This document shows positions 1 through 9,362 of a DNA stretch of 64,000 bases, in pieces. Under the pieces are notes generated by a model that had not been told where the DNA came from, made no database searches, and was given only the letters and a program-made list of their open reading frames with translations. This stretch comes from Nostoc sp. B(2019) (GTDB lineage Bacteria > Cyanobacteriota > Cyanobacteriia > Cyanobacteriales > Nostocaceae). The DNA lies in NCBI RefSeq assembly GCF_010091925.1, contig NZ_WVID01000008.1:186001-250000 (forward strand). The letters are read 5' to 3'. Within the stretch, counting starts at the first letter, position 1, and every line of letters begins with the position of its first letter. The translations under genes and the position numbers were made by a program.

Positions 1-905
1 CTAATCTTTGCCGGTTGAACTTTGCCATTTTCCAAGGCTTGGCGAATCACCGCCTGTTGAGCGAGTCCATTAGGTGCAGTAAGACTATTACTCAACCCAT
101 CTTGGTTAACTGCTGAACCTCTGATGAGTGCGAGAATGTTGTCTTTGTCTCTTACAGCATCACTGAGGCGCTTGAGCACAACTACGCCGCAGCCTTCTCC
201 CCTAACATAACCATCAGCGTTGGCATCAAAAGACTTACACTGACCAGCAGATGACAGCAGGCGTGTCTGAGACGAGGAGATAGTCGAATCCGGCGATAAA
301 ATTAAGTTTACTCCTCCAGCTAGGCATAAATTCGATTCTCCGTTTCGTAAACTCTGGCAGGCTAAGTGGACTGTCACCAGAGACGAAGAACAAGCAGTAT
401 CTATTGCCATACTGGGGCCACGCAAATCTAGCAAATAAGATAAGCGATTAGCTGTAATGCAGGGAGTTGTTCCCGTGCCACTATGTAATCCAATGCAAGA
501 GAAATTTTTATAAAGAAGTCTATGGTAATCGATGGTACATAGACCGATAAATACTCCTGTCTGACTGCTAGCTAGACTAGTTGGTACTATTCCAGCATTT
601 TCTAAAGCTTCCCAAGCTACCTCTAAAAATAGTCTTTGTTGGGGGTCTGTATGCTCGACTTCATCACGAGAAATTCCAAAAAAGTCAGCGTCGAACAAAT
701 CCACCTGCTCTAGAAAACCACCCCAACGGGTGCTCATTTTCCCTGGTGTATTGGGATTGGGATCGTAGAAGGCATCAATATCCCAGCGTTCTTTTGGTAC
801 TTGCGCGATCGCATCCTTACCATTACGCAATAGCTTCCAGAAGGATTCGGGATTTTTCGCTTTGGGAAAACGGCAACCAATGCCAATAATTGCTATGGGT
901 TCCAT
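1..905 (-). CDS. Type I polyketide synthase, N-terminal ketosynthase (partial, runs off left edge)
   Basis: This frame begins at an ATG at 905 and stays open to the window edge, giving about 301 residues. The protein starts [14 protein letters not shown], the usual N-terminus of a type I beta-ketoacyl synthase domain, and continues through [10 protein letters not shown] and DPQQRLFLE to the active-site block [12 protein letters not shown], which holds the nucleophilic cysteine. It then reaches [15 protein letters not shown] and the start of the SLTAPNG motif. The HGTGT histidine motif would lie beyond the edge. It is the last gene seen in the minus-strand biosynthetic operon, 80 bp after the CylC-like gene. 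By position it should accept the ACP-bound, modified fatty acyl chain and extend it. Later domains (AT, KR, ACP and so on) cannot be seen. Confidence 0.93.
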
Positions 906-985
906 CTAAATTGTTTGCCCAATAGTATTGATCTATGCTGACTAGCGAGATATCAACTCGCTAGTCTAGTCATGAAAGTCGTACT

Positions 986-2407
986 CTAGCTCTCCTGCTC
1001 CATAACCGATTTGGAGAACTCTTTAAAAGTCTGAGTATTCTTTTGGAGTGCTTTGCTAATCGAGCCTCCAGCAGCCATAATGCCCATTTCGCGGTTAATT
1101 TTCCATTGATAGTCTAGGCGACTAAATAGTCTTTGCATTAATTCCAGGAGGCTTTGATGATATTTGAGTCCGACATGATAGCCTTCGTGTTCTTGACAGA
1201 AGCACTTTTCCATCCAATCGAGGGCTTCTTTGGTTTCCATCCCAAATAGAGGAGATTTCAAGAGTTTGTAGTAAAAGACCATTAGCATGGGGTCATCGTA
1301 GACGCAGCGACCAGGTAACACTCCAGAAAGACCGCTCAGAAGGTTGCGTTGCGCCATATAAATCGCCAAACCAGATACAAATTTCTCGTAAGCAGTTGGC
1401 TTCGGGAAATCCTTATACATATCTTTGGCAATGGTTTGAGAAATCGTGGTGTGGAAAGCTTCGTCTAATAAATGGTAATAGGAGACAGCTGTTGGGGTCG
1501 GGATATACTCGCTTTTTTGCTCTAACTCTCGGAAATATCTGACATAAGGATATTCTTGGTTCTTGAGAATCGCATTAGCCGTATAGCGCAAGGAATAATA
1601 CTGACACGCCATAAACGGCGACATTCCCCAGTGAATGGTGAAAAACCGTAACCAATGACGTGGTGCGATTCGCCCTCCTAGACCATCAGCTGGTGCGGGA
1701 ATTGGCTCGCCTCTTTGCTCTAACTCTTGCAAATACCGAGAGTAATACTGTTTTTTATCACTAAGCATCGTCTTAGCGATCGCATTTAAGGCGTTGTCTC
1801 GGTATTCTGAAAATGTTGAGTCCCCATTACCTGATGAGGTGAAGAAATTCTGCACAGGCTGAGGAATTAAGGATCGAAGCCAGTTATTATTCTCTTTATC
1901 TGATTTGCCATAAAGGGAATTTCCCAATATGGTTTTACCAACTATGGCCATTTTCGTTTTGTAGCCGATCTTTTGAAAGGTACGAATGTGATAACTTTCT
2001 TGATCAGTTTCAAAATCGAGTTCGTTACACAGGGTTTCGTAACCACCAAAGGCGCGAAAAACGCCAGATGTTACCATGTTGTAAATACTCGTAGTGGCTT
2101 CGCTAACCGCAGTATGGTTATAGTTGCCGACCCAATAAAGATGATTAAGCGCTAGTTTCTGTGAGGGAGTAATGGCATCGTAGAGAGGCGTGCCATAAAG
2201 AAGTGAGAGTTCGGGAGGACTCCAGTAATAATTACTGTTATTGGCGTAGTTAAACTCATTACCCAAGTCTCTGAGTTTCTCGGTGTAGTCTGAGTTAGTG
2301 TTGTTCTGAAAAGTTTTTTCGATGATTATAGAATGCTTTGTTCCCTGTGCTTCTGACAGCGTTGAAGCTGAAATTTGGGGATCTAGAGTTTTGTTTCCAA
2401 GGATCAT
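986..2407 (-). CDS. CylC-type diiron halogenase-like protein
   Basis: A 473-residue helical protein that I assign to the CylC family, the dimetal-carboxylate proteins of cylindrocyclophane-type pathways that chlorinate unactivated carbons of ACP-bound fatty acyl chains. The assignment rests on length, on wording such as YYWSPPELSLLYGTPLY near residue 60, on three ExxH motifs (E137/H140, E316/H319, E408/H411) that suit a ferritin-like diiron site, and on its position between an ACP gene and a PKS gene. A short block is duplicated inside it: residues 222-240 and 288-306 share Y-x-R-Y-x-x-E-L-E-Q-x-x-E-x-I-P-x-P. It lies 79 bp after the ACP gene and has a CAGGA ribosome site upstream. Members of this family may also act as oxygenases, so halogenation is inferred. 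Confidence 0.8.
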   Translation of the reverse strand: MILGNKTLDPQISASTLSEAQGTKHSIIIEKTFQNNTNSDYTEKLRDLGNEFNYANNSNYYWSPPELSLLYGTPLYDAITPSQKLALNHLYWVGNYNHTAVSEATTSIYNMVTSGVFRAFGGYETLCNELDFETDQESYHIRTFQKIGYKTKMAIVGKTILGNSLYGKSDKENNNWLRSLIPQPVQNFFTSSGNGDSTFSEYRDNALNAIAKTMLSDKKQYYSRYLQELEQRGEPIPAPADGLGGRIAPRHWLRFFTIHWGMSPFMACQYYSLRYTANAILKNQEYPYVRYFRELEQKSEYIPTPTAVSYYHLLDEAFHTTISQTIAKDMYKDFPKPTAYEKFVSGLAIYMAQRNLLSGLSGVLPGRCVYDDPMLMVFYYKLLKSPLFGMETKEALDWMEKCFCQEHEGYHVGLKYHQSLLELMQRLFSRLDYQWKINREMGIMAAGGSISKALQKNTQTFKEFSKSVMEQES

Positions 2408-2486
2408 ATATTTTATCCTGAAAGAGTCAGTGAAAATACTGAGATTTTTTTACTTTTCTTGAGCTTGAGCACCAAGAAAATTGAGA

Positions 2487-2813
2487 TTAACTTTTAGTTC
2501 TTAACTGCGAGCTTAAATGCTGAACCAAAGCCTGAACAGTTGGGTAATCATACATAAGAGTTGGATCAATTTCTTGTCCTAGCCAGTCTTCTAGGTCGCC
2601 GGTTAAACCAACTGCTGCTGAGGAATCTAAACCATAGCGGTCAAAAGGGATCGTAACGTCGATTTCGTCTGAATCTACTTCTAATAAATTAGCTACATAA
2701 GAAACTATCCAAGCCTGAATTTCTGAAGGTGTTGGCATTTGTTTGGATGTATTGACTTTGTTACTCTCTAAAACCGTAGATATAGTATTCACTTGTAGAT
2801 TTTGTGTTTCCAT
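2487..2813 (-). CDS. Acyl carrier protein
   Basis: A 108-residue stand-alone acyl carrier protein. The phosphopantetheine attachment site is in YGLDSSAAVGL, with the LDS serine as attachment residue, followed by the helix II/III pattern LEDWLGQEIDP and YPTVQALVQHL. The N-terminal 30 residues are polar and probably disordered. In FAAL-dependent pathways (JamC, CylB) such a carrier receives the acyl group from the AMP ligase and presents it to tailoring enzymes, which fits its place between the desaturase and the CylC-like gene. The ATG is preceded by GAAGGA. The insertion at 2899-3200 lies between this gene and the desaturase, so it may have changed the spacing or transcript of the ACP gene. 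Confidence 0.93.
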   Translation of the reverse strand: METQNLQVNTISTVLESNKVNTSKQMPTPSEIQAWIVSYVANLLEVDSDEIDVTIPFDRYGLDSSAAVGLTGDLEDWLGQEIDPTLMYDYPTVQALVQHLSSQLRTKS

Positions 2814-2898
2814 CGTTTAGTCCTTCGCAAGTATTAATGAGTCTGTATGCTTTGTGGAATAGAATTGCCGTAGGTTCAGTTATGTAATTTATGTAATT

Positions 2899-3200
2899 AG
2901 GACTTACGCACTGAAGCTTGAAACCTAGATCCCCCCTAGCCCCCCTTAAAAAGGCAGGGCTGATTCATTCGATCTCTTAGGGATTTTGTCAAGAGTATGA
3001 GTCAGAAATTTGCTTGAGTGGAAAAAAGAAAAACTACCACCTCAACCAGCAAATTTAAGTGCGTTCACCATTTTCTTGCCCAATCAGATTTTTTAGTCAC
3101 CTGTTTTTTTTGCTTGAAACGCTTGTAAATCAGCGCCTTTTAGGGAATGAAACAGCCCTGCTTTTTAAGGGGGTTGGGGGATCTGAGTGCGTAAGTCCTG
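2899..3200. mobile_element. 302-bp MITE with long imperfect inverted ends, inserted at the 3' end of the desaturase gene
   Basis: The left end (AGGACTTACGCACT...) and the right end (...AGTGCGTAAGTCCT) are inverted copies. The similarity extends inward about 60 bp through a C-rich run and AAAAAGGCAGGGCTG against CAGCCCTGCTTTTTAAGG. The 170-bp centre has no reading frame of note. The hexamer GTAATT flanks both sides (2893-2898 and 3201-3206), as expected of a target-site duplication. Removing the element plus one GTAATT joins the desaturase frame to a new stop after A-K-L-H-K-L-H-N. There is no transposase inside, so movement would depend on an enzyme elsewhere. A single GGACTTACGCA end also appears near 55763. 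Confidence 0.8.
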
Positions 3201-4158
3201 GTAATTTGGCCTGAATCATCTCTGCTATCGGAACATGGACATTCCAAACCAGACCAAAAAACTCTAGAAAGCGGATAAACCAAGTACCTGGGTCAATTTG
3301 CCACCACTCGAATCCAGCAATGGCTGAGTGAGGAAAAGCATGATGGTTGTTGTGCCACGACTGTCCCCAACTGAAGATAGCCAGCAATATGTTGTTTGTA
3401 CTGCGGTCATGGTTATCAAAGGGGCGATCGCCATAGAGATGGCAAATGGAGTTGGTGCTGGAAATAATTTGCTGTCCGAGGAAGACTCTAACCAGGCCTC
3501 CCCATAAGAAACCCTGAAAAGCACCTATCCATGTCCATGTCAAGATCCCTCCTAGAAGAGTGGGGATAGCAAGACCTAAAATTACCCAAATGTGGTGCAG
3601 TTGGTTAATTTTACTAATTACAGGATCTCGGAGTATGTCTTTGGCAAAGAGCATAGAATTTGTCACTTCGCCATCAAGGGCCCAACCCACGTGAGCGTAC
3701 CATAGACCTTGCAACTGTCCGAGAATTCCGTCTCTATGCAGATGTGGTGAATGAGGATCACCTACTTGGTCAGTGTACTGGTGGTGACGTCGATGATGAG
3801 CTACCCAGTAAATGACTCCTCCTTGAGCAGCCATAGAGCCAAGAATAGCGAGAATTACCCGAACAGTAGTATTAGTTTGGAAAGTACGATGCGAAAAGTA
3901 ACGGTGAAAACCGACTTCAATTCCCAGTGTGGTTAAGGCGCACATACTCAACAGTAAACACACTTCCAGCCAACTAATCTTCAAGTACCAGAGTAGTCCA
4001 ACTGCTACTATCACGCCTAAAAAAGGAATCAAGAAGGTAGCTAAGGCTAACCGCTTGTAGATAGTTTGTAAGTAATCACTTGCGATCGTGATTTTCTGCC
4101 CCTGATGCACTCTCAAAAGGAGCTTCTTTTGAGATGTATTATCTGGTTGTGTTGACAT
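3130..4158 (-). CDS. Membrane fatty acyl desaturase, C-terminus altered by a MITE
   Basis: A 342-residue membrane desaturase of the acyl-CoA/acyl-lipid delta-9 superfamily. The three histidine boxes are HRYFSH, HHRRHH and HNNHH, the ligands of its diiron centre, and hydrophobic segments lie around residues 38-85 and 190-225. Beside an FAAL gene and an ACP gene it recalls JamB, which acts on ACP-bound short fatty acids to give terminal double or triple bonds. Regiochemistry cannot be read from sequence. It starts 34 bp after the FAAL stop. The last 18 or so residues (from PGLTHSDPP to the stop) are encoded by the end of the MITE at 2899-3200, so the present C-terminus is not the ancestral one. 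All histidine boxes lie well upstream, so activity may survive. Confidence 0.9.
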   Translation of the reverse strand: MSTQPDNTSQKKLLLRVHQGQKITIASDYLQTIYKRLALATFLIPFLGVIVAVGLLWYLKISWLEVCLLLSMCALTTLGIEVGFHRYFSHRTFQTNTTVRVILAILGSMAAQGGVIYWVAHHRRHHQYTDQVGDPHSPHLHRDGILGQLQGLWYAHVGWALDGEVTNSMLFAKDILRDPVISKINQLHHIWVILGLAIPTLLGGILTWTWIGAFQGFLWGGLVRVFLGQQIISSTNSICHLYGDRPFDNHDRSTNNILLAIFSWGQSWHNNHHAFPHSAIAGFEWWQIDPGTWFIRFLEFFGLVWNVHVPIAEMIQAKLPGLTHSDPPTPLKSRAVSFPKRR

Positions 4159-4192
4159 TAGTTAGTCTGTTCTTGGATAGTGTGAATCTTAT

Positions 4193-6055
4193 TCATGGCT
4201 GTTTACCAGCTGTGAGTTGTTCTAAAATAGAATCAACTTCAGCTTGCAGATTCATGAACTTAGACTTATTTTGAGGATTCTCGCTCCAATCCTCTACAAC
4301 ATCTAAACTTCCAGAGAGAAACACAGTTCGACAAGCTAGACGGCGAATCTTGCCACTAGAAGTTTTGGGAATACTTCCACTCTTGACGAGTACGGTAGCG
4401 CAAACGTCCAGCCCGTGCTGCGCTACTACTGCTTCTCTAATACTTGCGATGACTTCTGGGACGTTTAACTTTCGCAAGTAACTCCGCTCTACTTCCTGAA
4501 CAACAACTAGTCGCTCTGAACCCTTGAAATCGATGGAAAAGGCTGCTCCACAACCGCGTCTCAGGGCTGGATGGCTGTTCTCAACAGTCAGTTCAATATC
4601 TTGGGGATAATGATTTTGCCCACGAATTATAATTACATCTTTGATGCGTCCTGTAATAAACAGTTCGCCATCTTGTAAAAATCCGAGGTCGCCGGTGCGA
4701 AGAAATGGCCCTGATGCTGCGATCGCGTTAACGCTAACATCTGTATCTGCTAGATATGCACAGAAAGCTGTCTGTGTCTCCTCATCTCGATTCCAGTAAC
4801 CTTGAGCAATACTTGGCCCAGCTACCCAGATTTCCCCGACTTGCTCAGGAGTACAGAGGGTTAAAGATTCGGGGTTGACAATAATTACCTTTTGCTCTGG
4901 ATAACTTTGTCCACAACCAATAATTGTCTGGGTATCTGTCTGAGCATCGTTAACCCTGACAATTTGGTTTTGCTCTAGTGCTGCTTTTTCGATATTGCAA
5001 GCGATTGGTAAAGCTGTTTTCTCACCCCCTGTCACCAGAAGAGTTGTTTCTGCCATGCCGTAGCAGGGGTAGAATGCTTCTTTACGAAAGCCACAAGGCG
5101 CAAAAGTAGAGGCAAACTGTTCCAATGTCTCGGCCCGGACAGTTTCAGCCCCAGTAAAAGCAACTTCCCAACTGCTGAGGTCTAGATTTGCCAGTTGTTC
5201 GGGTGTAACTTTGCGTATACATAAGTCGTAAGCAAAATTTGGCCCGCCGCTAGTAGTAGCTCTATGGTGTGTTATGGCTTCCAGCCAGCGGATAGGCTTT
5301 TGTAAAAAGTCTGCGGGCGATATCAGTGCTACAGGAAAACCACCATAGAGAGGTTGTAGTATGCCGCCAATCAATCCCATATCGTGGTATGGCGGCAACC
5401 AAATCACGCCTTGGCTATCGGGTGTATGCCCAAAACATTTGTGGATCACATCTGAGTTGTGCATCAGGTTGCCATGACTCACCATGACACCTTTGGGATT
5501 ACCTGTAGAACCAGAGGTGTACTGGAGGAAGGCTAAGCGATCGCTAGTTAATTCTGGTTGTTGCCATGCGTTACTTAAGTCAGTGTTCAACTCATCTGTT
5601 GCCAACCAATGCAATCCAGCAAGTTCTAGGCTTCCTTGATTGGACGCAGATTGGAGGTTATTTAACAGTGTTGCAGAGGTCAGTAGTACTTTTGCTTGGG
5701 CATCTGCGGCTATAGTCTGCAATCTAGACAGTTTTTGATTTCGTCTGGGTGGGTAAGCAGGAACAGCGACAACACCGGCATATAAACATCCAAAGAAGGC
5801 AGCAATATAATCTAGACCAGGCTGATAAAGGAGCAAGGCCCGTTCACCAGAGACATCTAGAGACTGGAGAGTGGCTGCGATCGCCTGCGCCTTGATATGT
5901 AGCTCTTGATAAGTCAGTGATTCTGCTTCTGTATCTCTATAGTGCAAAAAAGTATAAGCTTTCTGTTCCGGCTGATTTTGCGCCCTGTAACTCAGTAATT
6001 CAACTAATGTTGAGAAATGGTACTCGTTGATTAAACAGTTGGAATAAGTACTCAT
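4193..6055 (-). CDS. Fatty acyl-AMP ligase (FAAL)
   Basis: A 620-residue adenylate-forming enzyme that activates a free fatty acid with ATP and passes it to the ACP. Motifs in order are YTSGSTGNPKGVMVSH (P-loop A3, near residue 180), PPYHDMGLIGG, YGMAETTL, RTGDLGFL and GRIKDVIIIRGQNHYPQDIE. The last is typical of FAALs, which lack acyl-CoA ligase turnover because of an insertion after the core. PSGKI-like lysine motif KTSSGKIRR lies near the C-terminus. There is no fused carrier domain, so the separate ACP downstream is the natural partner. AGAGG precedes the ATG. As first gene of the minus-strand operon it follows a 768-bp region without genes. Confidence 0.95.
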   Translation of the reverse strand: MSTYSNCLINEYHFSTLVELLSYRAQNQPEQKAYTFLHYRDTEAESLTYQELHIKAQAIAATLQSLDVSGERALLLYQPGLDYIAAFFGCLYAGVVAVPAYPPRRNQKLSRLQTIAADAQAKVLLTSATLLNNLQSASNQGSLELAGLHWLATDELNTDLSNAWQQPELTSDRLAFLQYTSGSTGNPKGVMVSHGNLMHNSDVIHKCFGHTPDSQGVIWLPPYHDMGLIGGILQPLYGGFPVALISPADFLQKPIRWLEAITHHRATTSGGPNFAYDLCIRKVTPEQLANLDLSSWEVAFTGAETVRAETLEQFASTFAPCGFRKEAFYPCYGMAETTLLVTGGEKTALPIACNIEKAALEQNQIVRVNDAQTDTQTIIGCGQSYPEQKVIIVNPESLTLCTPEQVGEIWVAGPSIAQGYWNRDEETQTAFCAYLADTDVSVNAIAASGPFLRTGDLGFLQDGELFITGRIKDVIIIRGQNHYPQDIELTVENSHPALRRGCGAAFSIDFKGSERLVVVQEVERSYLRKLNVPEVIASIREAVVAQHGLDVCATVLVKSGSIPKTSSGKIRRLACRTVFLSGSLDVVEDWSENPQNKSKFMNLQAEVDSILEQLTAGKQP

Positions 6056-6823
6056 TTAATGCACCTCTATGGCATTACAGTTATCCCTGCAAGACGGAGT
6101 TGCCTACTTAGTCTGATGACAAGGTAGTGCAACTATCTCGAAACTAGATACCCTCTCTCGATCTATTGTTTGAATTTGATATACACTTACAAGTTTTGAC
6201 TTAGTAGCCTGCATTTAGTCAGATACTATCCAAGCAAACCATTAAACTACATATCTATAGCTGGGATAATCATAATTTGCAGCCTAAATAGATTGATACT
6301 TTTACAAGGTTCTAACTACATCAATTCTGCTGCTTGTAAAGTAAAAATATTGGGTGTTGCTGAGTTACAGCCGGAATCCAGATGTAGAGACACGATATAT
6401 TGCTTTTCTACAAGGGTTTTTCATACTCTAAATCAGCAACACCAAATATTGAACCCCAAATTATGATTGCTAGATCAGACTAAATTAGTTTGATTATCAG
6501 TGCTGCGTTGAATCAGATTTCATCTTTGAAGGATTATCAACAGCTACTACAAACTTGAGCAAATCTGTTCCGTAGGTTTAGGAGTGGTAGAATTTGCTCT
6601 CAAACTTTTTGGTACTATTAGGTTAAAATTCTTGGTACACCGTAGAAAGCCGAATCTGTTAGTCAGGTACTTTCTATACGTTGTGCTTACCTCAAGGATC
6701 ACTCATTATTTGATATTTTTGCCAAAGTAGAATGATTCCCAACTTTCATAAGAACCTTAAGAAAATTCAGAAGTATTTATCATTACTAAGTTTATACAGT
6801 ATTTGAAAGTTGTTTTCTATCAC
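6056..6823. promoter_or_regulatory. Gene-free region upstream of the FAAL operon, with an inverted repeat at 6346-6450
   Basis: This stretch separates the regulator gene from the operon on the same strand, so it should contain the operon promoter. The only clear structure is an inverted repeat: AATATTGGGTGTTGCTGA at 6346-6363 against TCAGCAACACCAAATATT at 6433-6450 (17 of 18 paired), enclosing about 70 bp. It could be a regulator site, a small MITE or a hairpin. I could not place a convincing -10/-35 pair. Confidence 0.45.
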
Positions 6824-7696
6824 TTATCCTTTGCTAAAAGTAGCAATTCCTTCTTTTTGTCTCTGATCAGGCTGATTACGATGCTCTCTTCTCCAAGCGT
6901 GGGGAGTTGTTTTGTGATGTTGGCGAAACTGGCGGAAGAAATGAGCCACATTTTGATAGCCGATCTTCAAAGAAATTGTTTCTACTGTTTCGTCAGTTTT
7001 CAGTAGCAAGGTACGAGCCGCTGTCATCCGGTACTCAATAATCCAGTTTTGGACAGTTTGTCCTGTTTGGCGTCGCACTAAATTGGTGAGGTAAGTTGAA
7101 GAGTAACCAACTTTAAGAGCTACGTCGCTGAGGGTAATTTGTTGATAATAATTTTCCTCAATAAAGCTAAAGACTTCATCCAACAATGAGTTAGACGGAA
7201 ATGTAGACTTAAGAATTGCTGGTTCGAGAATGTCAGCTAGTAATGGCTTTGTAAATGGTTGAAACTGATGAATCTCACAGGCAGCGTAACACTTTTTGAG
7301 AATAGTTCGCTTTTCTAAACAGGCTGCGATCGCATTCAACAATTCCTCTACAGTACAGGGTTTAGTAAGATAGTCATCCGCTCCCAATTCCATACCTTTA
7401 CGAATCTCATATCGAGCTTCTTTAGTGGTGACAAAAATCAAGGGGATCATTGCTGTAGAAGGGTTTTGGCGCAGCATAGTTAAGACACTATAACCATCAA
7501 GTTTGGGAAGTGAAATTTCACTTATGATCAAATCAGGTAGCTCTTGCTGTGCCTGCTGAAAACCAACAAGACCGTTTTCAGCATCTATCGTACAGAAACC
7601 CTCTGCTTTCAGACATTTTAGAAAAAAATTTTTGGTTTGTACTTCAGGTTCAATTACCAAAATCTTTTTCCCATTCAAAAATCGTCTATTTATCAT
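6824..7696 (-). CDS. AraC-family response regulator with a degenerate receiver
   Basis: A receiver domain followed by a C-terminal AraC-type double helix-turn-helix (SDVALKVGYSSTYLTNLVRRQTG, then ISLKIGYQNVAHFFRQFRQHH-like text, read in parts). The receiver keeps the switch Thr (FVTT) and Lys (LTKPC), but the phospho-acceptor position reads LIISEISLP, with Glu where Asp is expected. The acidic pair reads VIEPE instead of xDD or xED. Ordinary phosphorylation is therefore unlikely, and Glu might mimic the phosphorylated state. It lies directly upstream of the FAAL operon on the same strand and is a good candidate for its pathway regulator. The start is set at the ATG at 7696. An alternative TTG lies at 7744. 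Confidence 0.85.
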   Translation of the reverse strand: MINRRFLNGKKILVIEPEVQTKNFFLKCLKAEGFCTIDAENGLVGFQQAQQELPDLIISEISLPKLDGYSVLTMLRQNPSTAMIPLIFVTTKEARYEIRKGMELGADDYLTKPCTVEELLNAIAACLEKRTILKKCYAACEIHQFQPFTKPLLADILEPAILKSTFPSNSLLDEVFSFIEENYYQQITLSDVALKVGYSSTYLTNLVRRQTGQTVQNWIIEYRMTAARTLLLKTDETVETISLKIGYQNVAHFFRQFRQHHKTTPHAWRREHRNQPDQRQKEGIATFSKG

Positions 7697-9362
7697 GGTA
7701 AGTAAGAGTTGTGTGGACTCGTCAATGGCCTTACTTTTTACCAAATTTCTTCAATGGCATTAATTTCACTTAAAATCATTTTTGTAAAGCTCTATTGACT
7801 CGTTCCTAATTCTCATAATTTAGTATCAGAGACTACCAAAAAATAAATTATCCAATCTTATTTGTCGGGTGCATTTAAGTATCCCTATGGCGAAGCAAGT
7901 ACCACACCATCTTGACTAATCTGTCACGGTGCGTTGGTCAGAGGTATAACGCAACGCCAGTTGCTACAACTTAGGAAACCTCTGCAACGCACTGGCTCCC
8001 TTACAAGTTGGATATTTTTATTAATTGGAAGTCCCTTAATGAGAATTAGCTATTATGAAAAAACTCCATTTGGAAATAGATCTCAAGGTTTTCGTAAAAA
8101 GTCAGCAGCAAAATCAGGTTGCGAGAAGACTTCCATAGTTAATATTTATTCCTCCTTAGCTCCCATAACAACCAGAATCTCCTTAGAAGCATAGGTTAGG
8201 ATTTTTAGCAAGGAAAATTGCACATTATGTGTTGCTAGCTTGACTAATTTCATTCCTCATGTAACCTGCACCCCTGTCATTGGTGTTGATGATATTGAAC
8301 GTCACCATAGAAATACTTTCCTTGTTGAATTAAAGGTTTGTACCATAAGGGCAAAATTATTTATCTAACCAAGCCACCAGAGAACACTAGGAGTATCAAT
8401 AGTTACTAAAATATCAGTAATTGAATTATTGCTTAGGCATAGGCTACTAATGGTATCTATGCCCAAAATTCTTGCTGATATCAACAATAATGGAACACAC
8501 AAAAGCTTAGTATTTGTTAATTTAGCAAGACAAAACTTTTTCCATTGTGCTGGAATTATATTTTGTTAGGGCTTTCTAGAAAAGTCACTTTTAACAATAC
8601 AGTTATTTGGATAATAATGCAACACCCTTGCCGTAATCTTACGGTTTATTCAAAAATATGGGGTTTTTACGCCATATAAAAAGCATCATTTATTTCTCAT
8701 AATTTTTTAGATATATTTTGAAAATGTTAATTTCAGTATGCTGATTATACTGACAAGCCCCTATCTGTATAACTTTCAGCTTTCTTGTTATTATAAAGTC
8801 TCATTATTATTATCAAGCTTTGGAGATAGTTTTTTATTTTTCAATAAGTAAAAATAATATTACTATTCTGCTCGTCTATCTGAGGACACATAAAATATTA
8901 ATTTTATAAGCAATTAAGAATACAAAGATCCGCAATTAGATAAAGATTTGGTAAAGCAGAAGCAGTATCATTAAGTTAATATCAACATATCAGCAGAATA
9001 AAAGCAGTTTGAGAGAATCAAATAGTAGCGACATCCTTGCAGAGAACCTTGTGCAGTGTTGAAAAATCATACTTTATCTACTGCTCCCTTTTTCTTAAAC
9101 TCCTGAGTTATATTTGCCCGAATGAAAATTGCTGCTTGTCTAAATTAACAGGCAAGTACACATATTGCTGTTTGAGAAAAGTAACCAGTAAATTGATATA
9201 TTGATATACCGATAAGACAAATGAACGCCCTTTTCCAAAACTATTAAGTCTTGGCTTGATGGCTACTAGCTCTGACGACTATCAGTCGTAGCTACACAGA
9301 CAAAACTCTGATCGCCCTTACTACAACGGAGAGGCGGCCGCTAAGTCATAAATTAGCCTAAT
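7697..9362. other. 1.67-kb gene-free stretch
   Basis: No convincing coding region was found. Around 7921-8010 it contains a dispersed-repeat-like text (CACGGTGCGTTGGTCAGAGG ... CAACGCACTGGCTCCC). An open frame over this repeat begins MVRGITQRQLLQL and I judge it a repeat artefact. The rest is AT-rich with short polyA/T runs. Strong promoters or RNA genes could not be identified by eye. Confidence 0.5.

Follow-up and report, generated by a model that had tools for sequence, protein, structure and literature searches.

Gene content and extent of the cluster

This study concerns a biosynthetic gene cluster of Nostoc sp. B(2019) whose front end lies in a 64,000-nucleotide stretch of contig NZ_WVID01000008.1 (bases 186001-250000), here called the window; positions without a prefix are counted within it, and those prefixed C98 along the whole contig, which belongs to a 7.4 Mb genome (G000). 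An earlier note, made from the window alone, had described at 1..7744 a minus-strand operon with a fatty acyl-AMP ligase (FAAL), a desaturase with three histidine boxes, an acyl carrier protein (ACP), a CylC-like protein and a ketosynthase (KS) with the motif DTACSSS. All five genes are present at 3-6055, and the interval given in the note, ending at 7744, also takes in a regulator gene (6824-7744), but the cluster does not stop at the window: it continues about 17 kb further left, to C98:168694, with all genes on the minus strand. Since the cluster is cut by the window edge, the first interpretation could be right only in part. From right to left the genes are as follows.

6824..7744, minus strand: protein with a response-regulator receiver and an AraC helix-turn-helix, candidate cluster regulator
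4193..6055, minus strand: FAAL, 620 aa (AMP-binding, E=4.5e-71)
3130..4158, minus strand: DES, FAAL-linked membrane fatty acid desaturase, 342 aa (FA_desaturase, E=5.1e-22)
2487..2813, minus strand: ACP1, stand-alone acyl carrier protein (PP-binding, E=3.1e-17)
986..2407, minus strand: CylC-type dimetal-carboxylate halogenase, 473 aa, assigned by homology and active-site residues
3..905, minus strand: N-terminal 301 aa of the ketosynthase (DTACSSS, AHAVGT instead of AHGTGT, NIGHL), cut by the window edge
C98:184341-186905, minus strand: the whole gene for KS plus degenerate acyltransferase (AT), 854 aa, of which 3..905 is the N-terminal part
C98:184015-184326, minus strand: ACP2, read on the contig left of the window
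C98:182085-183959, minus strand: TubC-624, 624 aa, whose one Pfam match is the TubC docking domain at its N-terminus
C98:181208-182074, minus strand: short-chain dehydrogenase/reductase (SDR) 1
C98:179978-181132, minus strand: glycosyltransferase GT1 (monogalactosyldiacylglycerol-synthase and diglucosyl-diacylglycerol-synthase matches)
C98:179058-179891, minus strand: SDR2
C98:177462-179000, minus strand: GMC oxidoreductase
C98:176198-177328, minus strand: UDP-galactopyranose mutase (NCBIfam score 434.7, cut-off 303.75)
C98:175275-176201, minus strand: methyltransferase
C98:174015-175244 and C98:172613-173839, minus strand: two further glycosyltransferases
C98:171045-172604, minus strand: predicted exporter of the major facilitator superfamily (MFS)
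C98:168694-170955, minus strand: CylK homologue, an SBBP beta-propeller protein (phmmer match to CylK)

The best NCBIfam matches of the FAAL include FAAL-type models, all under the curated cut-offs, and DES has the histidine boxes HRYFSH, HHRRHH and HNNHH. The CylC-like protein gave a weak AurF match (E=3e-05), under the Pfam cut-off, and none to the NCBIfam models. The five-gene arrangement is far from a chance one, since the set recurs in four named genomes with CylC 94-99% identical; the nearest named relatives by CylC identity are Nostoc sp. MG11 (99%), two Komarekiella (97%) and aff. Roholtiella LEGE 12411 (94%). Within the four named relatives with the same gene set, DES is broken, truncated or end-shifted. 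More widely, FAAL, ACP, CylC, polyketide synthase (PKS), terminal KS with degenerate AT, ACP2, TubC, SDR1, glycosyltransferase and CylK are found together in genomes G283 and G375 and in Nostoc NMS2 and FACHB-892, with the order FAAL-ACP-CylC-PKS-terminal KS-ACP2-TubC-SDR-GT-...-CylK in the last two and CylK located between SDR1 and GT1 in G283. Relatives of SDR1 are present in all four and also in G454 and loci L209 and L163; in L211, where SDR1 gave no match, an SDR2 is present.

The receiver-AraC protein is probably the cluster regulator, judging by relatives that stand beside FAAL in other CylC loci. Among 78 loci scanned, relatives of 51-95% identity lie near FAAL in L072, L073, L074, L099, L100, L102, L103, L109, L111, L113 and L114, and a relative of 36% in L134; L083 and L115 have shorter matches. 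On the other side, about 15-31 kb past the CylK end of the cluster, C98:137521-153907 (L009, L010) carries what appear by eye to be galactose-metabolism genes (GH2, galT, galK, galE); the cluster itself has the UDP-galactopyranose mutase.

Halogenase and CylK homologue

Nine residues are essential in the CylC homologue NocO according to PMC12101540, seven of them within the motifs QExxH and HxxDExxH. The window CylC has E103, Q136, E137, H140, E285, H312, D315, E316 and H319. The seven motif residues and E285 are invariant in 22 aligned rows, E285 standing 30 residues ahead of D315 as E252 does ahead of D282 in NocO; the ninth, E103, was assigned by conservation, and with it all nine are invariant in those rows. 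In a quick tree built from 85 rows, each a match of at least 330 residues, the window CylC fell in a starred set of 27 (98), whose sister, at a support of 93, is the first CylC of Moorena bouillonii (L095). Four Moorena rows from loci without a FAAL or ACP match fell apart from this clade, and a Synechocystis row on a long branch was unplaced. A "rieske" label on five outgroup rows was not borne out at the three loci checked, the open reading frames (ORFs) of L140, L141 and L143 having no Rieske motif; the outgroup Moorena loci adjoin another PKS, and the comparison therefore lacks confirmed Rieske-type relatives. Homologues at E<=0.001 occur in 55 of 388 genomes of the class, and a solved-structure search with CylC returned no relative at E<=0.01. 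The ratio of nonsynonymous to synonymous change (dN/dS) is 0.08-0.12 in three pairs. The earlier note had proposed that a CylC position among non-halogenating relatives would count against its reading; instead the protein lies in a clade of CylC proteins linked to FAAL and ACP, with the nine residues of a dimetal-carboxylate halogenase kept, so that neither the active site nor the place in the tree refutes the predicted halogenation.

The gene at the left end of the cluster matches the solved CylK structure 7fh8 (phmmer E=4.2e-105, over residues 22-644). At the positions that PMC10849952 gives as Arg84, Glu428 and Tyr460 in NglO and Arg105, Asp440 and Tyr473 in CylK, the protein has Arg32, Glu406 and Tyr440, with Glu as in NglO, and all 14 copies read from relatives keep the Arg/Glu/Tyr trio. 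Of 25 genomes searched that carry related clusters, 24 have a CylK homologue, a count of presence in the genome with the same contig shown for some only; the exception is Nostoc sp. WHI, which carries locus L142. The homologue lies about 18 kb from the desaturase or its remnant, on the same contig, in Nostoc MG11, Komarekiella delphini-convector, Roholtiella and Aliterella. In Nostoc FACHB-892 (L233, 6612-12514) a single cluster holds two CylK homologues, 60% and 63% like that of the window genome.

The same paper describes the ngl (pks3) cluster of Nostoc punctiforme ATCC 29133, a strain picked for having no CylI, with CylC and CylK homologues, a FAAL, a glycosyltransferase and a KS marked as inactivated. 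Its products are chlorinated C21 glycolipids, the nostochlorosides, with a 6-O-methylgulose head, and the CylK homologue NglO polymerises them through ether bonds with an internal hydroxyl as the favoured nucleophile. CylI was not recognised among the ORFs of our cluster in Pfam and NCBIfam scans, no search with a CylI sequence having been made. Here too CylC and CylK homologues stand in one cluster with FAAL and glycosyltransferase, which is how ngl is built. We therefore read the window genes, with a probability of about 0.8 and from sequence comparison, as the loading and tailoring front of an ngl-type chlorinated-glycolipid cluster that runs from window position 7744 leftwards to C98:168694, and consider a chlorinated, possibly unsaturated glycolipid the likely product rather than a polyketide-capped fatty acid.

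Polyketide synthase architecture

Two forms of PKS follow the halogenase in related loci. In type A, seen in the window, L072, L073, L074, L075, L080, L082 and L092, one KS with degenerate AT is followed by ACP2; L085 was counted as type A because its KS, read alone, has AHAVGT. In type B, seen in L076, L077 (the G283 locus, where domains were read by Pfam), L078, L079, L081, L086, L112 and G375, a module of KS, AT, ketoreductase (KR) and ACP is followed by a terminal KS, a degenerate AT and ACP2. All eight complete type A KS-AT proteins are without GHSxG and without about 80 residues of the AT core. The seven aligned type B first modules have GHSVGE and HAFHS, and the seven aligned type B terminal ATs are degenerate, with G375 in agreement. 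Among 50 KS rows AHAVGT is confined to the eight type A rows and L085, and is found in none of the other 41 (one of which, L124_KS2, is NMS2); AHGTGT is found in all eight type B first modules and VQGTGT in all eight type B terminal KS. Of nine clusters read, the eight other than ours have the first catalytic His of the terminal KS changed to Gln or Asn; the window KS keeps its Cys-His-His triad. Between CylC and TubC the window cluster has no GHSxG AT, as compared with one each in G283, G375, NMS2 and G454, two in FACHB-892, two in FACHB-1515 (where the stretch read begins within the PKS) and six in the filamentous cyanobacterium CCP3. The window line is thus without a module for normal extension, and no KR motif was found in the same interval.

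These observations bear on two other explanations. The product proposed in the earlier note, a polyketide-capped fatty acid that is unsaturated, possibly chlorinated and here taken as one of the jamaicamide or columbamide kind with a truly extending PKS, would draw on the FAAL-DES-ACP order, which is that of the FAAL-DES-ACP-PKS loci L202 and L204, on the presence of the KS active-site Cys and both His, and on the many CylC loci that run on into PKS genes with more modules. It is nevertheless very improbable given a CylC-TubC interval with one KS, an AT lacking GHSxG and its core and no KR motif, and given that the left half of the cluster goes on to encode three glycosyltransferases, a UDP-galactopyranose mutase and the CylK homologue. 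An explanation closer to ours keeps the glycolipid pathway but has the KS extend once, with malonyl units supplied in trans by FabD and an SDR acting as ketoreductase, so that an internal hydroxyl is kept. The intact triad, the two SDRs in the cluster and the relatives of SDR1 in related clusters would agree with it; the restriction of AHAVGT to type A KS and L085 does not, and the Gln or Asn that the other eight clusters have in their terminal KS suggests a non-elongating place in the line, so we hold a single extension to be unlikely.

As to the origin of the type A protein, a quick tree of the 50 KS rows groups the window KS with first-module KS, the eight type A rows and L085 forming a starred set at 100. 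In a tree of 41 AT rows a starred branch (95/94) splits 22 ATs, seven of them checked as active by motif and fifteen unchecked, from 19 that include the type A and the terminal degenerate ATs. Constraint tests rejected type A with the seven B2 rows alone (p 0.011) and did not reject type A with B1 (p 0.095); the stretch that follows the AT resembles the first module by eye, and three-group AT trees without an outgroup gave no decision on AT origin. A KS of first-module lineage joined to an AT that goes with the terminal degenerate ATs suggests a fusion that deleted a module, which is favoured by these comparisons but not proved.

Desaturase and repeated element

The two further desaturase-like genes found in the window genome are 35-36% identical to DES. 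A set found elsewhere reaches 50-69%, and all of its members looked at (L082, L088, L090, L202, L204, L205, L206) are near FAAL; three Moorena copies at 45-46% are not near FAAL. DES has the features of JamB-type enzymes, namely three histidine boxes and a gene between FAAL and ACP. The 3' end of DES is overlapped by a repeated element, which encodes the last ~23 DES codons, the gene being otherwise intact.

2899-3199: repeated element bounded by perfect 14-bp inverted repeats (AGGACTTACGCACT), its inner arms 29 bp long

Ten copies elsewhere in the genome are 97-100% alike over ~210-245 bp, and there are weaker or partial copies in addition.

The merging of a FAAL-desaturase-ACP unit with a FAAL-ACP-CylC unit, as the earlier note had it, is borne out by gene content. 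The combination of a desaturase with CylC is not unique. DES (E<=1e-45) lies within ~6 kb of CylC on the same contig in 4 of the 388 genomes, namely G000 itself, G217, G353 and G386 (a partial match). In Pleurocapsales LEGE 10410 (L205), moreover, the order is FAAL-DES-DES-ACP-CylC-PKS, with FAAL split over two frames and CylC at 46%, which makes it another desaturase-plus-CylC cluster, distinct from that of the window. Units of FAAL, DES and ACP for which the stretch read gave no CylC match are found in Moorena sp. SS36440bin_2 (L202, L204) and Komarekiella (L206). The last of these, in Komarekiella delphini-convector (G393:C43), has a FAAL, three tandem desaturases, two ACPs, a KS protein and an ORF resembling, by eye, the CMAS protein of L202; this cluster may make a polyunsaturated or acetylenic compound.

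Among the nine type A loci the three histidine boxes are kept in the window, L074 (with a shifted C-terminus), L080, L082 and L085, and DES is broken or truncated in L072, L073, L075 (also cut by a contig start) and L092. Among the eight type B loci, scraps of DES persist in the FAAL-ACP gap of L078, L079, L081 and G375; none was seen in the gap of L076, L077 or L112, and L086 gave only a doubtful 10-residue match. Between the window and L074 dN/dS is 0.235 for DES compared with 0.08 for CylC, and between the intact DES of L080 and L082 it is 0.13. DES has thus been under selection, and several lines are now losing it. Repeated loss in relatives makes unsaturation doubtful as a stable trait. 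An idea that the desaturase replaces the missing PKS module was ruled out by Hydrococcus rivularis, where an intact DES accompanies a first KS with normal motifs (L084); its terminal KS-degenerate AT-ACP2-TubC set (L211) is on a different contig.

Could the whole cluster be decaying and unproductive? Module loss, damage to DES and the mobile element in it would then all be erosion, and the four damaged DES genes of nine, the element at the 3' end and the raised dN/dS of DES relative to CylC can be taken in that sense. Yet FAAL, ACP1, CylC, KS-AT, ACP2, TubC and the CylK homologue are 87-99% identical in Nostoc MG11 and two Komarekiella (the KS-AT match of L074 ending at residue 806), the CylC ratios are low in all three pairs, and the form with KS and degenerate AT is also found in Aliterella (Aliterellaceae) and Mojavia. 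General decay is accordingly improbable.

The TubC-624 family

Strong relatives of TubC-624 (at least 458 bits) occupy 32 places, four of them partial, in 31 of the 388 genomes; any match at all is found in 105, mostly to the docking domain alone, and solved-structure and Pfam searches gave only that domain at convincing scores. Eight of the places whose stretch has no CylC match were looked at (G000:C33, G129, G143, G116, G037, G212, G094 and G178), and in all of them a relative of ACP2 lies at most 180 bases upstream. Where the neighbours were scanned, G143 has a PfaA/HglE-type PKS, PfaD and a PapA-type acyltransferase, and G116 the exporters DevC and DevA (six proteins scanned). Such neighbours fit the hgl-like islands of PMC11804610, a paper that leaves their products open.

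The window genome has a second copy of TubC-624 at C33:61392-63245. The surrounding stretch, C33:45001-66694 (L150, L151), also holds ACP2, a PapA-like acyltransferase and relatives of SDR1 and the methyltransferase, and is probably an hgl-like island itself. In LEGE 10410 TubC-624 lies in an island (L207) resembling one that PMC11804610 ties speculatively to C24 1,3-diol glycosides, a likeness that is evidence against a strict odd-chain role for the family. The notion of TubC-624 as sole release enzyme of these islands was dropped, as the LEGE 10410 island also has a protein in which an ACP is combined with a NAD_binding_4 domain (thioester-reductase type).

Proposed pathway

The chemical steps, the relative order of DES and CylC and the product are here proposals built on gene content, homology, catalytic residues and conservation. 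FAAL would activate a fatty acid and load it on ACP1, where CylC would chlorinate an unactivated carbon of the bound chain and DES, while intact, would introduce a double bond. The protein with KS and degenerate AT may hand the chain to ACP2 with no normal extension, and TubC-624 would take it from there and, with the SDRs, form an alcohol head. Glycosyltransferases would then add a sugar, for which the UDP-galactopyranose mutase suggests galactofuranose; the methyltransferase might add a methyl group to this sugar, and the lipid would leave the cell through the MFS protein. Finally, the CylK homologue would displace chloride, linking molecules by ethers.

Several points weigh against this pathway. 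According to PMC10849952, the ngl sugar is gulose and its epimerase is NglK, and no counterpart of NglK was recognised in our cluster, which has the mutase instead; the comparison with ngl is made through the text of that paper, and the cluster is called ngl-type rather than an ngl orthologue. DES may be inactive. The intact KS triad with AHAVGT could permit extension if a malonyl transferase acts from elsewhere. If there is no extension, the missing KR module means that the internal hydroxyl for an NglO-like ether is absent, and another oxygen is needed.

A tentative form of the pathway takes the PKS as a pure acyl shuttle, in which a KS of first-module lineage, fused to a degenerate terminal AT, would pass the chlorinated, unextended chain on from ACP1. 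On ACP2 the last carbon would be added by TubC-624, as a member of an ACP-docked enzyme family, which together with an SDR would form the vicinal-diol head to which the sugar is attached; with the hydroxyl-forming module missing, the CylK homologue would have to use another nucleophile for the ether. This is possible without being probable; if true, the ACP2-TubC pair would explain both the odd C21 tail of the nostochlorosides and the unknown product of the hgl-like islands. The preferred reading, an ngl-type glycolipid cluster, puts a concrete product class in place of an open guess about the starter unit, with chloride dependence as a way to look for the compound.

Comparison with known systems

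The Moorena bouillonii PNG locus L095, which we take to be the columbamide locus, is alike in having FAAL, ACP and a CylC-type halogenase followed by PKS, and its first CylC is sister to the clade of the window protein; it differs in having no desaturase match, two tandem CylC genes and a long PKS. Between its FAAL and ACP (7794-9125) is a 443-aa ORF that looks by eye like a transposon-borne RNA-guided nuclease. The jamaicamide loading unit consists of JamA, JamB and JamC (FAAL, desaturase and ACP). The window unit shares this order, but after it come CylC, a KS taken to be non-extending and the genes for the glycolipid. A passage of PMC11837247 gives the name JamB to the ACP and does not name the desaturase.

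With ngl, by its published description (PMC10849952), the window cluster shares FAAL, the CylC and CylK homologues, a glycosyltransferase and the NglO-type Glu. It differs in the desaturase between FAAL and ACP, in three glycosyltransferases and the UDP-galactopyranose mutase, and in having no AT/KR module, as neither a GHSxG AT nor a KR motif lies between CylC and TubC, whereas an AT- and KR-bearing module is among the ngl domains, the origin of the odd-carbon diol head being left open there. The ngl KS is marked for an inactivating site change; in the window KS the HGTGT region reads AHAVGT with the catalytic His kept. No paper on the product of this exact variant was found, in a search that mostly did not cover subscription literature. 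The cluster very probably serves a chlorinated glycolipid by the known ngl logic, in a stripped-down form with a PKS lacking its chain-extension parts and a desaturase decaying in the closest relatives. Natural variants that begin with this halogenase start, end with this terminal KS-ACP2-TubC set and have 0-6 extension modules in between form a comparison series, which can show what part of the line builds the odd-carbon diol head and from which hydroxyl the CylK family forms its ether bonds. The hgl-like islands, lastly, share the ACP2-TubC pair, and have a PfaA/HglE-type PKS, PfaD and a DevCA exporter where the window cluster has FAAL, CylC and CylK; the TubC-624 family in this way ties the CylC-CylK clusters to those islands.

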